Assembly: GCA_009693245.1 (NCBI GenBank)
Contig: SHXO01000026.1
Coordinates: forward strand, 1-33,023
Length of the DNA: 33,023 nt
DNA from: Betaproteobacteria bacterium
GTDB lineage: Bacteria > Pseudomonadota > Gammaproteobacteria > Burkholderiales > SHXO01
Reading direction: 5' to 3'
Below, piece by piece: positions 7,496 to 13,749 of the stretch; within the stretch, counting starts at the first letter, position 1; the number at the start of each line of letters is the position of its first letter. A program made the translations under genes and the position numbers. The notes under the pieces are model-generated. The model did no database searches. It saw only the letters and a list, made by a program, of their open reading frames with translations, and was not told the DNA's origin.

Positions 7496-8527
7496 CTACC
7501 CAAGGCTTACTCCCAGCACCTTCCCAATCCCATAAGTAAGCGCTCCGGCCGCCGCACCGATCAGCATCATGCGGAACCCGCCGCGGAAGGCGCGTCTTCC
7601 GGTGAACAGGCTAGAGGTTGCGCCCACGCCGAACAAGCTGGCGGCGGTGAGGCAGATGGTCCACGGCAGCGGAGTATTCAAATGCAGTGCAAAGGGTATT
7701 AGCGGAACCGCCGCACCCAATCCAAACGATGCGAAGGAAGACAAGGCCGCGCCCCATGGCGAACCCAGCTCGTCGGGGTTAAGGCCCAGCTCCTCGCGGG
7801 CCAGAGCGTCCAGGCCGCGTTCGGGATCGGCCACCATGGAGGCGGCGAGGCGCTGGGCTTCTGCTCTCTCCAAGCCGCGCGCTTCGTAGATCAAGGCCAG
7901 CTCGGAGGCTTCTTCTTCCGGGTATTCGGCCAGTTCGTCGCGCTCCAACGCGATTTGATATTCATACATTTCGCGTTGCGATCGCACCGAAACGTATTCT
8001 CCAGCAGCCATGGAGAAAGCACCTGCCAGCAGCCCGGCCACCCCAGAGAGCAGGATCAAGCCGGGTTGGGCCGTCGCGCCCGCCACGCCGAGAATTAGGC
8101 TGGCATTGGAGACCAAGCCGTCGTTCACGCCGAAGACAGCGGCGCGCAGGTTTCCCCCGCCGGACAGTCCGCTATGGGCGCGTTCCATTCCGGTGGCGGG
8201 ATCGGGCGCCGCATGGCCCAAATCGGAACCGGTGTAGACGGACATCCCGCGCACTTTCATGGCCGCCAATACCGAATGCATCGCCCTGGGACCGTACCGG
8301 CGCGTAAGGCCGGCTACGATGCGCGTGCGCAATGACGGCGCAAACTCCGGCGGGACCGAAAGTCCCGTCTTGCTGGCCCTCTTCGCCCAATGTTCGGCTT
8401 GGCTCTCGGCTTCGCGTCCCAATTCCCTGAAGAGCTTTTCGCGCACCGTGCCGCGTTCAATCTCCGCCAGTACGCGGTAGAGGTAAGCGGAACCTTGTTC
8501 TTCTCGCCAGCTATGGAGTTCTTGCAT
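7496..8527 (-). CDS. Ferritin-like/VIT1 fusion iron transporter (MbfA-like)
   Basis: 343 residues. The N-terminal ~140 residues form a ferritin-like/rubrerythrin-like helical domain (WREEQGSAYLYRVLAEIERG and REAESQAEHW supply metal-ligand acidic and His residues). The C-terminal part is a VIT1/CCC1 membrane domain, starting with GGNLRAAVFGVNDGLVSNAS and containing LLAGAFSMAAGEYVSVRSQ, an acidic cytoplasmic segment (RDELAEYPEEEASE), and three further membrane segments to the end. This architecture matches membrane-bound ferritin A of alphaproteobacteria, which exports iron and protects against peroxide. The ATG at 8527 follows AAAGG; an upstream in-frame ATG at 8635 lies in a repeat element and is unlikely. 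Iron or manganese efflux across the inner membrane is the family expectation. The gene is monocistronic. Confidence 0.88.
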   Translation of the reverse strand: MQELHSWREEQGSAYLYRVLAEIERGTVREKLFRELGREAESQAEHWAKRASKTGLSVPPEFAPSLRTRIVAGLTRRYGPRAMHSVLAAMKVRGMSVYTGSDLGHAAPDPATGMERAHSGLSGGGNLRAAVFGVNDGLVSNASLILGVAGATAQPGLILLSGVAGLLAGAFSMAAGEYVSVRSQREMYEYQIALERDELAEYPEEEASELALIYEARGLERAEAQRLAASMVADPERGLDALAREELGLNPDELGSPWGAALSSFASFGLGAAVPLIPFALHLNTPLPWTICLTAASLFGVGATSSLFTGRRAFRGGFRMMLIGAAAGALTYGIGKVLGVSLG

Positions 8528-8559
8528 GTCTACCTTTTGAATTAAACGCGAGGGCTTTA

Positions 8560-8680
8560 GGGCGCCTCTAAAAATGCACAGAATGGGGTGAGGTCGAGCC
8601 GAGGAGCGCAGGTGTACGAGGAGTACATTGAGCACCGCAGGTTCGAGATCGGCCCATTATGGGAATTTTTGGAGGCGCCC
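8560..8680. repeat. Structured intergenic element with 16-bp terminal inverted repeats
   Basis: Arms GGGCGCCTCTAAAAAT (8560-8575) and ATTTTTGGAGGCGCCC (8665-8680) pair over 16 positions with one G-T. Inside are two direct repeats, GAGGAGCGCAGG (8601-8612) and GAGCACCGCAGG (8630-8641), flanking a perfect TGTAC/GTACA hairpin (8613-8617 and 8623-8627). It sits between the divergent starts of the iron transporter and uup. From memory, elements of this general design recur in betaproteobacterial genomes; I could not check a database. It may be a small non-autonomous mobile element or a structured RNA. Confidence 0.6.
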
Positions 8681-8722
8681 TTTAGCTATGCTACCGTCGC
8701 GCCCCATCTAAAGTGAACCATT

Positions 8723-10615
8723 ATGCCGCTCGCCACCCTCGAATCCGTTTGCCTCGCTTATGGCCATGTGCCGCTTTTGGATCACGCCAGTCTCGTTCTC
8801 GAAAGCGGCGAGCGGGTTGGCCTGATCGGGCGCAATGGCACGGGCAAAAGCAGCCTCTTGAAAATCCTCGCCAATCAATCTCACCCCGACGATGGCGTGG
8901 TGTGGCACCGGCCCGGGCTGCGCTTGGCCTACGTGGCGCAAGAACCCATCTTGGATCCCACCCACACCGTATTCGAATCCGCGCTGCAAGGGCTGGGGCC
9001 GGTGAAACAACTACTGATCGACTACGACCACGTCATCCACGCGGTGGAGAAGGATCATAGCGATGAGTCGATGGCCCGGCTCACCCACCTATCGAGCGAA
9101 CTGGATGCGCAGCATGCGTGGAGCTTCAAGTCGCGGGTGGAAATCGTGCTCTCGCGTCTGCAACTGAATGCGGAAGCGCTGGTGAGCACACTATCGGGAG
9201 GACAGAAGAAACGCCTGGCCCTGGCGCAAGCCATGGTGAGCGAACCCGAAGTCCTGTTATTGGATGAGCCCACCAACCATCTGGATATCTCATCCATCGA
9301 GTGGCTGGAATCGCTGCTCACGGAATTCACCGGCGCGCTGGTGCTCATTACCCATGACCGCCGCTTTCTCGACCTGGTGGTGACCCGCATCGCCGAACTG
9401 GACCGCGGCCGCCTCAACACTTATCCGGGCAATTTCTCGCAGTACCAAACCCTCAAGGCGCAGCAACTCGCCGATGAAACGGTGCGCAACGAGAAGTTCG
9501 ATAAGTTGCTCGCGCAAGAAGAAGTGTGGATCCGGCGCGGCATCGAGGCACGCCGCACCCGCGATGTGGGGCGCATCCGGCGGCTAGAAGCCTTGCGGCT
9601 CGCGCGCGCGGCTCGCCGCGAACGCACGGGAACCGCGAAGATCGGCGTGGATGCGGGCGAGCGCTCCGGAAAACTCGTGGCGGAGCTGGACGGCGTGAGC
9701 AAATCCTTCGGTGACAAGGTGGTGGTGAAAAGCTTTTCTTGCCGCATCCAGCGCGGTGACCGCGTGGGATTCGTCGGGCCGAACGGCGCGGGTAAAACCA
9801 CCTTGCTTAAACTGATCTTGGGGGAATTGCAGCCGGACGCGGGAAAAGTACGCTTGGGCTCGAAGCTCGCCATCGCTTACTACGATCAGTTCCGCAACCA
9901 ACTTGACGAGGAAGCCACGGTACTGGACACCGTGGCGCAAGGTTCGGACTTCGTGGAAGTGGAAGGCCAGCGCAAGCACGTCATGAGCTACCTCGGCGAG
10001 TTTTTGTTTCCGCCACAACGCGTGCGCTCGCCGGTAAAGTCCTTGAGCGGGGGCGAGCGCAACCGGCTCTTGCTCGCGCGATTATTCACCAAGCCCGTGA
10101 ACCTGCTGGTGTTGGACGAACCCACCAACGATCTGGACATCGAGACGTTGGAGCTATTGGAATCCCTACTTCAGGAATACGAAGGCACCGTGTTTCTCGT
10201 GAGCCACGACCGAGCGTTTCTCGATAACGTGGTGACGCAGGTCATCGCCTGGGATGGCCCAGGCAACTGGGTGGAGAATCCGGGCGGTTACGACGAGTGG
10301 ATGCGGGTGGTGAGCGCCCGAGAAGAGCGCGCCAAGGTACCGCCACCGGCCGCCCCGAAACCCGTTGCCGCGCAACGCACCGCGCGCCCCGAGAAGTTGA
10401 GTTTCAAGGAAACCCAGGAACTGAAGTCGCTACCCGCGACGATCGAATCCCTGGAAAAAGAGCAAACGGAACTCAGCCGCGTTATGTCGGACGCGGGCTT
10501 CTACAAATCCGATCCTGCGGATGTGAAACGAGCGAGCGAGCGCGTCGCGCAAATCGAGCAACTACTCTCCGAAGCCCTGGAACGCTGGACCGAATTGGAA
10601 GCCAAGGCCCGCTGA
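8723..10615 (+). CDS. uup: ABC-F family ATPase Uup
   Basis: 630 residues with two ABC domains in tandem. The first has Walker A GRNGTGKSS, signature LSGGQKKRLALAQAM and Walker B LLLDEPTNHLD. The second has GPNGAGKTT, LSGGERNRLLLARLF and LVLDEPTNDLD. The inter-domain linker is rich in Arg and charged residues (RRGIEARRTRDVGRIRRLE), as in ABC-F proteins. The C-terminal ~75 residues form the coiled-coil tail characteristic of Uup (PATIESLEKEQTELSRVM). ABC-F proteins bind ribosomes or branched nucleic acids rather than transport; E. coli Uup affects precise transposon excision and branch migration. The ATG at 8723 lies just past the repeat element, with no strong Shine-Dalgarno. Length and motifs are complete. 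Confidence 0.95.
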   Translation: MPLATLESVCLAYGHVPLLDHASLVLESGERVGLIGRNGTGKSSLLKILANQSHPDDGVVWHRPGLRLAYVAQEPILDPTHTVFESALQGLGPVKQLLIDYDHVIHAVEKDHSDESMARLTHLSSELDAQHAWSFKSRVEIVLSRLQLNAEALVSTLSGGQKKRLALAQAMVSEPEVLLLDEPTNHLDISSIEWLESLLTEFTGALVLITHDRRFLDLVVTRIAELDRGRLNTYPGNFSQYQTLKAQQLADETVRNEKFDKLLAQEEVWIRRGIEARRTRDVGRIRRLEALRLARAARRERTGTAKIGVDAGERSGKLVAELDGVSKSFGDKVVVKSFSCRIQRGDRVGFVGPNGAGKTTLLKLILGELQPDAGKVRLGSKLAIAYYDQFRNQLDEEATVLDTVAQGSDFVEVEGQRKHVMSYLGEFLFPPQRVRSPVKSLSGGERNRLLLARLFTKPVNLLVLDEPTNDLDIETLELLESLLQEYEGTVFLVSHDRAFLDNVVTQVIAWDGPGNWVENPGGYDEWMRVVSAREERAKVPPPAAPKPVAAQRTARPEKLSFKETQELKSLPATIESLEKEQTELSRVMSDAGFYKSDPADVKRASERVAQIEQLLSEALERWTELEAKAR

Positions 10616-12271: not shown

Positions 12272-13749
12272 ATGAAAATCGCAGCTGCGGCAAACCCCAG
12301 GGAAAGGCAAGAAGAACTCGGACAGTTCCTCACCGCTGCTCCAGTGGCGGATTTCATGTCGTCAATGTTTGGCCAACTTCCGCGAACGGTACGATTGCTT
12401 GATGCGGGCGCGGGCGCACTCGCCGCGGCTTTCGTCTCCCGGTGTCGTGAAGAACGCAGCGCAGTCGCTACCATCGAAGCCACCCTCTATTAAGTCGACG
12501 GCGCAATCCTAGACGCGCTGGGGGTGACGATACGCGAGTGTGAGAATCTCTGCTCGAAGGCGGGCATTCGCTTCACCTTCACTATCCATCCGGAAGGCTT
12601 CATCCAAGAAATGTCGGCCCGCCTCGCGGGAGGTTTGTTCGGTTCGCCGCCGCCTGCGTTCGATGTGGCCATCGCGAATCCGCCTTATCGCAAAATCAAC
12701 GCTGACTCGGCGGAGCGGCGCGCACTGCGTTTAGCCGGAGTCGAGACCAGCAATCTCTATACAGGCTTCATTGCGCTCATCCAGCGGCTATTGGTTCCCG
12801 GTGGCCAACTGGTCGGAATTACGCCGCGGAGCTTTTGTAATGGCCCTTACTTCCGCCCGTTTCGCGAAGACCTCCTGAGCCAGTTTGAGCTTCGCCGCCT
12901 GCATGTTTTCGAATCACGCCAGGCGGCCTTCCGCGACGACAGCGTGTTGCAGGAGAACATCATTTTCCATGTAGTGAAGGGCCGTAACCAACCACGCGAC
13001 GTTCTCATCTCCACCAGCAGCGGGGTGCAGGGCGAAAGCATCTCGGAGGCGGCCTTTCCATTCACCGAGATCGTTCGTCCGAACGACGCCGAGAAGTTCA
13101 TGCACATCCCTCCACGACAAGCCACGCCAGGGCTAAAGAAGCGTTGGACGGCCTCGGTTGCAGTCAGGCCTCGCTGGGGCTCACCGTTTCAACAGGTCGC
13201 GTTGTGGATTTCCGGCTCAAGGACGCGATTCGCAAGGAACCTGAAAGCGGAACCGTGCCGCTGGTCTATCCGTGCCACTTTAACGGAGGAACCGTCCATT
13301 GGCCAAAGCCCAAAGGCCGCAAGCCTAACGCCATTCTCGACAATGACGAGACGCGCGCATGGCTCGTGCCTTCCGGGGTGTATCTGCTTACGAAACGCTT
13401 CACGTCCAAAGAAGAGGGCCGGCGTCTTGTGGCGTGTTTGTTCGATCCCGACTTGGTGAAAGCGGACCGGATCGGATTCGAGAACCATCTGAACTATTTC
13501 CATGCGAACGGTCACGGATTGGAGCGTTCTCTGGCCGTTGGCCTATATGCCTTCCTAAACTCCACCGTGGACGACCAGTATTTTCGGCGCTTTAGCGGTC
13601 ACGCACAGGTGAACGCCACCGATCTGCGCATCCTTGCCTATCCCGGCCGAGACACGCTACAATCAGCGGGCCTTGAATTGAGGGCGCTTGACCTGTCGCA
13701 GGACGAGATCGACAAGCTCGTCCGCAAGCATCTTGATGCCTGCCGATAA
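12272..13749 (+). pseudogene. Broken BsuBI/PstI-type adenine-N6 DNA methyltransferase
   Basis: Three frame segments together make about 492 codons, close to the ~500 of M.BsuBI/M.PstI-type enzymes. Segment one (12272-12490) has AdoMet motif I as LLDAGAGALAAAF, which looks two residues shorter than the usual DAGAGxGxLT form. A TAA at 12491 then interrupts ATLY*VDGAILDAL; the frame continues unchanged, so GAA to TAA is the simplest lesion. Catalytic motif IV, VAIANPPYRK, is at 12665-12694. A second lesion near 13105-13125 shifts the frame: KFMHIP in the first frame is followed by HARAKEALDGL and GLTVSTGRVVDFR in another, consistent with loss of one base. The last segment contains FENHLNYFHANG and runs to 13749. 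The reading frame ends 14 bases inside the endonuclease gene. Confidence 0.88.

Follow-up and report, generated by a model that had tools for sequence, protein, structure and literature searches.

A palindromic IS5-type MITE of a betaproteobacterium carries an interior core found in MITEs with different ends

Results

A 121-bp palindrome between an mbfA-like and a uup-like gene

The window analysed here is the whole 33,023-nucleotide stretch of betaproteobacterial DNA, and positions refer to it. Between an mbfA-like gene and a gene for a uup-like ABC-F ATPase lies a 121-bp imperfect palindrome, for which the plus strand is called the core strand (Table 1). The original prediction had placed a structured element of 121 bases at 8560-8680 between these genes, and every part that it described was found in its place. 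The boundary of the palindrome is exact, with a 4-bp direct repeat, TTTA, adjoining both ends. The terminal arms, predicted to be 16 bases long, pair over 16 positions (8560-8575 with 8665-8680) by 15 Watson-Crick pairs and one T.G pair, and the ends, GGGCGCCTCYAAAAA, match those of IS5-family insertion sequences. The central hairpin is perfect, with TGTAC at 8613-8617, the loop GAGGA and GTACA at 8623-8627. Two internal direct repeats had also been described. They are present (GAGGAGCGCAGG at 8601-8612 and GAGCACCGCAGG at 8630-8641) but do not form a separate repeat: they are the pair of symmetric strands that lies between two GCA/GA loops. In our reading of the predicted fold, a 5-base helix strand in each copy would link two successive purine internal loops, to the first of which the copy contributes the GA side and to the second the GCA side, with the two copies opposed.

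Table 1 Features of the element and its neighbours in the window
Feature	Position	Strand	Basis or remark
mbfA-like gene	7496..8527	-	VIT1 domain, PF01988 E 7.1e-71; start 8527
Left target-site duplication copy, TTTA	8556..8559	.	Sequence; statistics over 28 elements
Whole MITE, 121 bp	8560..8680	+	Sequence, fold, target duplication statistics
Left terminal inverted repeat, GGGCGCCTCTAAAAA, IS5-family type	8560..8574	+	Like ends on IS5-family insertion sequences
First GAGnnnCGCAGG copy	8601..8612	+	Supplies GA to one purine loop and GCA to the following one
Conserved core, GC-GCA-(stem-loop)-GA-GC	8606..8633	+	Held-out covariance models R1 and R2
Central hairpin, TGTAC-GAGGA-GTACA	8613..8627	+	Two more G.T pairs lengthen the stem; family stem covaries
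Second GAGnnnCGCAGG copy	8630..8641	+	Faces the first copy in the fold
Right terminal inverted repeat, TTTTTGGAGGCGCCC on the plus strand	8666..8680	-	Sequence
Right target-site duplication copy, TTTA	8681..8684	.	Statistics over 28 elements
uup-like ABC-F ATPase gene	8723..10615	+	NF050005 778.6 bits, under its 900-bit cut-off; start 8723

Folded as RNA, the plus strand reaches -69.9 kcal/mol against -35.5 (sd 3.2) for shuffled sequences (z -10.7; 0 of 200 shuffles as low) and the minus strand -51.4 kcal/mol (z -7.3). Therefore, the fold of the palindrome is far beyond chance on both strands. A simple scan of 8400-8850 gave no terminator-like site, which, together with the target duplication, agrees with the earlier view that the element is not a simple terminator. 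Elsewhere in the window, a plus-strand frame at 12524-13459 contains an Eco57I-type methylase domain (PF07669, E 6.7e-12) and shows a weak PglX match; frames overlapping downstream of it may represent a larger or a frame-broken gene.

The element is a MITE with IS5-type ends

The element is 121 bp long with ends of 15-16 bp, too short for a transposase gene, and is flanked by TTTA on either side. These are properties of a MITE. It is single-copy in its own genome, and elements with the same ends are multicopy in other genomes. By blastn the element matched only itself in its own genome, and it had no match in the relatives sample (59 other genomes, E<=0.01), in plasmids or in phages. Among 300 genomes of the order, the end-pair pattern occurred only in the genome of the window, and a strict core pattern had no match in the genome contigs. 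The case of a single copy without homologues, raised in the original prediction, thus holds in part: the element is single-copy and has no blastn-level homologue, but homologues exist by ends and structure.

A gapped end-pair pattern recovered 28 stretches, with several in each of three genomes; the genomes carry labels such as Acidobacteriota, Cytophagaceae, Deltaproteobacteria and Chlorobaculum. Target duplications were assessed in the window element and these stretches, 28 of the 29 being used since one (L017) had lost its left flank at a contig end; some of the 28 end-pair stretches are probably chance pairs, and none was taken out for that. An exact 4-bp duplication outside GGGN-GCCTC...GAGGC-NCCC was present in 11 of the 28 elements, the window element among them, against 0.92 expected from re-paired flanks (z 8.0; maximum 5 in 2000 shuffles). 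The excess is confined to this register and length; across registers 0 to 8 and lengths 3 to 5, nothing else is comparable. A recognisable core is present in five of the 11 duplication-bearing elements (the window element, L010, L015, L021 and L022). The earlier suggestion of a small mobile element is therefore supported by the IS5 type of the ends, by the duplicated target and by relatives found in other phyla. At the mbfA loci of relatives, examined for an empty site, no uup gene was found alongside. One viral contig with an end pair (L007) was judged by eye to be a chance match.

Several elements with IS5-type ends differ in the interior. Five copies (L039-L042 in genome G302 and L056 in G306) are short versions that keep these ends, lack the core and measure 47 to 63 bp from GCCTC to GAGGC; in some of the G302 copies the missing piece sits, by eye, between AAGGC repeats. 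Also by eye, the ends of L014, L031 and L034 surround a different interior, a TTCGACAAGCTCAG-like repeat, and those of L023 and L035 another, a CATTGCGGG/GCGAG-like one. The genome of L025 (G310, labelled Rhizobium sp. MAG) holds 107 copies of GGNNCCTCTAAAAA in 1.5 Mb, the reversed control giving 0, and several copies lie close to the ends of contigs, where the repeat may have interrupted the assembly.

Related insertion sequences

One viral contig (L096) carries a 1153-bp insertion sequence with the ends AGGGAACCTCTAAAAA...TTTTTAGAGGTTCCCC. Its transposase is frame-broken and belongs to the IS5 family: one piece matches NF033581 at E 7.8e-31, under the whole-protein cut-off, and there are matches to PF01609 and PF05598. 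The L096 element was the only insertion sequence found when 80 of the 94 one-end stretches of viral contigs were checked for a partner end. Relatives of the L096 transposase occur in 181 plasmid records, and five of the eight matches fetched among them have GGG..CCTC[TG][AC]AAA-type ends; in two of these five, a 4-bp direct repeat was seen by eye (TCAC in one, AAAG in the other). Insertion sequences of the NF033581 (transpos_IS5_4) kind, in plasmids of Aromatoleum, P. putida (pWW0) and Lactococcus, share the GGGCRCCTCKAAAAA-type ends of the window element, but they encode a transposase and the window element does not. The ends of the element are IS5-like, but a parent transposase was not found in the same genome: in this 130-contig assembly the NF033581 model detected no full-length transposase and only an 87-aa match below the cut-off (E 8.5e-6). 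A parent search in G302 gave three end pairs 1 to 3.5 kb apart (L036-L038), some of whose ends belong to whole MITEs, and by eye no transposase-like frame was seen in L036 and L037.

The interior core covaries

The middle of about a dozen of the 28 stretches reads, by eye and with some degenerate cases, GCGSAG-hairpin-TGAGCA, as in the window. The same core occurs with other ends in plasmids of Pseudomonas, Halomonas and Haliscomenobacter and in viral contigs. A covariance model (R1) was built from 19 cores with the window left out, and its training set has double changes in 6 of 12 pairs. The window core is the best R1 match in the window but a weak one (13.3 bits, E 0.24), and R1 gave no match at E<=2 in the genome of the window. 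A core-only model (R2), built after this weak result from 25 cores without the window and ERIC, detected the window core at 8605-8635 with 21.3 bits (E 0.0032), the next match in the window having 12.6 bits. The core is thus recognised by a model that was not trained on it, with R2 though only at E 0.24 with R1.

At E<=0.01, calculated per genome and hence rough, R1 has matches in 62 of the 300 order genomes, five of the 62 with at least 20 scored candidates each; in the phylum it has matches in 30 of 200 genomes at E<=1e-4. Thirty order matches (29 distinct) lay outside the R1 training set, and all 348 of their 348 cells are paired, with 30 double-change cells; their covariation score, 0.312, exceeds that of the slid-partner controls (at most 0.094), and they lean towards R1 because R1 itself found them. 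Six order-match sequences have a GC to CG double change at the outer pair, a change absent from the R1 training set. The core-only R2 set also covaries. The check for covariation in the central stem that had been proposed therefore comes out positive in the R1 set, the order matches and the core-only set, and the central hairpin had rightly been seen as the variable part: across relatives the stem changes with compensation and its feet stay largely fixed. The constancy of GCGSAG and TGAGCA itself proves little, because the patterns and models containing these letters favour them. The interior core, GC-GNA-(stem-loop of free sequence)-GA-GC, is kept by compensatory changes and is not arbitrary filler.

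In L226 and L229-L233 the core is a variant, CCGGAG...TGAGGA, with a compensated change of the outer pair from GC to CG. Six elements of a same-genus genome, G003 (L245, L248 and L250-L253), bear the core with nested GNA/GA loops and have other ends; this genome gave six R1 matches at E<=0.0063, and by eye the ends of most of them are CAGGCTGTTGAAAAAC-like. The window also has a 27-codon open frame at 8628-8711 on the plus strand, with a TTG start at the 3' foot of the hairpin and a stop 11 bases before the uup start. A small ORF behind a GGAG or GCAG foot, the hairpin and ATG AGC was considered as a feature of the core and not adopted, because the model search selects for ATG, TTG takes its place in the window and, by eye, the frames differ in where they end.

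Purine bubbles lie on one strand

Mismatches in the arms are strongly one-sided. On the core strand, purine.purine and pyrimidine.pyrimidine mismatches number 233:15 in 33 elements and 602:65 in 80 elements, two sets that overlap and contain related elements. The first comprises 33 of 35 elements (L173, with a wrong centre, and L017 were left out) and the second 80 of the 86 elements of the order set after removal of six with an end score <8; the second also served for folding. The polarity has the same sign in 33 of 33 and 80 of 80 elements, and the window element, at 8:0, has the purine-purine bubbles on the core strand as the other core elements do. Fifteen control elements with IS5-type ends and no core were mixed; three of these controls, all from one genome (L016, L020 and L028), matched the core elements in one-sidedness and perhaps have a degenerate core. 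With purine-purine bubbles on one strand only, that strand therefore folds better when single-stranded, and the core strand is the better folder in 74 of 80 elements with RNA parameters and in 77 of 80 with DNA parameters. G.T and A.C mismatches in the arms number 48:64 and 96:147. This lack of a G.T excess speaks against selection for an RNA helix through wobble pairs in the arms. Relative to neighbouring long frames, 26 elements are antisense and 15 sense, without clear bias; 22 lie at convergent and 12 at divergent sites, 11 have a frame on one side only and 2 are spanned by a frame.

One core with different ends and duplication lengths

The order set consisted of 90 loci, reduced to 86 by the removal of four without a usable core or too short. 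Elements with GAGACCTTTGCACG ends show an exact 5-bp duplication in 12 of 14 cases (0.89 expected), the 14 coming from three genomes, and those with GAACCTGTTC-type ends an exact 3-bp duplication in 19 of 29 (8.5 expected; 0 of 5000 shuffles reached 19). For CAGGCTGTTGAAAAAC-type ends, an exact 4-bp duplication in 7 of 11 (3.6 expected) was not beyond the shuffles, and for GGGAAGCTCT-type ends the three elements all had a 3-bp duplication (1.7 expected). Three duplication lengths, 3, 4 and 5 bp, thus occur around one core, since the GAACCTGTTC, window and GAGACCTTTGCACG end types differ in this way.

The bodies outside the core and the ends were also aligned. With the best member pair taken for each pair of end types, z was at least 9 in 11 of 36 pairs. 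The end type of the window reached z 7.9 with one type and at most 3.7 with the other seven, and the window body itself z 0.1 to 6.7 against 31 others. Two end types, those of the Haliscomenobacter element L168 and of L235, had body z <5 against all 8 other types.

Comparison with known repeats

The nearest published case found is MITEPsy1 of Pseudomonas syringae. According to the available part of PMC3189936, it is an IS5-related MITE of 100 nt with 18-nt ends that is mobile in vivo and has a 4-nt target duplication, CTAG or YTAA. It resembles the window element in being IS5-related, in the 4-nt duplication and in holding CCTCTGAAAAA at one end, but its ends differ in detail and the window target is TTTA.

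The ERIC (IRU, RU-1) element of enterobacteria is a 127-bp palindrome with the centre AG-GA-GCTTAC-ATAA-GTAAGT-GA-CT, laid out as in the core with tandem GA and a G.T-closed stem, and its bubbles, scored in one copy, are 9:1 purine. The best R2 match in 78 kb of mixed loci was exactly this ERIC centre, only at 13.3 bits (E 0.81), and R1 gave no match to ERIC at E<=10. Alignment to ERIC exceeded z 4 for three of 32 elements, and the window element scored 15 against 11.6 in the null (z 1.5), so that it does not belong to ERIC by sequence. ERIC termini are TA-type, as the accessible text of PMC2229807 describes them, unlike the IS5-type ends here. The likeness of the centre is suggestive only, and we treat ERIC as a lead to a possible relative of the shared core.

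REP (GTAG/CGTC) palindromes, which go with RAYT transposases, resemble the core in being a hairpin with an unpaired foot (PMC3733652, consulted in part). The window element differs from them in its foot, GCAG instead of GTAG/CGTC, and in its IS5-type ends and target duplication. R178 of P. fluorescens, described in part of PMC2718517 as 101 bp long with an internal inverted repeat of 11 bp, may be likened to the core bodies by that description; intergenic repeats of P. fluorescens are reported there to favour convergent sites.

Published bacterial MITEs are described family by family in the literature that we found. The portions of open-licence papers searched, without supplements (including PMC5896051, PMC4666352 and PMC10969869), gave no core common to different ends, and string searches of open-licence papers with the end and core sequences gave nothing evidently relevant among the papers listed. 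An IS5-type MITE with a 4-bp duplication is of a known kind. For a core shared across MITEs with different ends, no published description was found in these searches.

Discussion

We consider it highly probable that the element is a non-autonomous MITE with IS5-type ends, whose interior core has been kept by compensatory changes across differing ends, most likely as a single-stranded structure. An IS5-family transposase acting in trans may have put it into a TTTA target between the mbfA-like and uup-like genes; we infer this because the element has IS5-type ends and an exact 4-bp duplication and because same-ended elements elsewhere show duplications too. The insertion in itself is of an ordinary kind, one single-copy MITE, and its interest is in the core that it exposed. 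The core probably functions as a single-stranded structure, in ssDNA or RNA. ssDNA is favoured over RNA because the arms have no wobble excess and the genes around the elements show no clear orientation. Such a structure, formed in ssDNA during replication or excision or, less favoured, in a transcript, might help the elements to persist or to move with any transposase.

The original prediction also allowed for an RNA gene, and the strong fold with its strand asymmetry and the covarying core could suit a structured RNA gene or a cis-regulatory RNA (sRNA or leader) of the mbfA/uup region, the ends being a mere stem base. The closing core pair, too, stays G.U or A.U and is never G.C, but this fixed U may be a constraint on sequence. 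The target duplication, the IS5-type ends and the relatives with many copies at separate places of one genome all speak for a mobile element instead. An Infernal/Rfam search of the window gave no match at gathering score (the best one inside the element at E<=5 was sX9 on the minus strand, 20.9 bits against a threshold of 44, E 2.8), no tRNA was found at the element, a simple sigma-70 scan gave no promoter-like site, and neither a wobble excess in the family arms nor a clear sense bias was seen. We therefore regard an RNA gene as very improbable, and that part of the prediction was not supported. A related explanation leaves the element mobile and lets the core act in transcripts, where read-through RNA would fold, the purine bubbles would avoid long double-stranded RNA, and the decay or translation of neighbouring mRNAs would be tuned. 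A like proposal has been published for ERIC in Yersinia, where folding of its transcripts would tune the mRNA decay or translation of neighbours (summarised in PMC2229807). In 74 of 80 elements the core strand gives the more stable RNA fold, and ATG closes the hairpin in 86 of 86, although the model search favours ATG and the window has TTG. The gene orientation (26 antisense, 15 sense) is unclear, G.U pairs are not in excess, and convergent sites outnumber divergent ones, 22 to 12, as for tolerated selfish DNA, and we hold a role in transcripts to be unlikely.

Palindromic MITEs could also arise repeatedly, and the core would then reflect convergence on a stable hairpin and not common descent or function. 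The low body z of the L168 and L235 end types (<5 against all 8 others), the similarly weak end type of the window and the occurrence of quite different interiors inside IS5-type ends fit such an origin. Convergence does not readily account for the unpaired GNA/GA letters, which stay while the stems change, for bodies that align at z of at least 9 in 11 of 36 end-type pairs, or for the detection of the window core by a held-out model, and it appears distinctly unlikely. More far-reaching is the idea of one ancient structural body, with the covarying core and one-strand purine bubbles, common to many MITE families with different transposases and perhaps to ERIC. The body would be the lasting unit and would change its ends, and its core would be read single-stranded by a host factor or in transposition. 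We put this forward as a tentative possibility about which we are more doubtful than confident, and our estimate was lowered slightly because the end type of the window has little body likeness to the others. If it is true, the body would live as a parasite of transposons and pursue new transposases by swapping its ends.

The usual classification of MITEs rests on the ends and takes the interiors as filler. Here, compensatory changes preserve the fold of an interior hairpin, while the ends vary and the moving enzyme with them. A shared core would help to explain why bacterial MITEs are palindromic and would give a common yardstick for MITE families that are now named apart. Elements of proven mobility would also allow its role to be tested directly.
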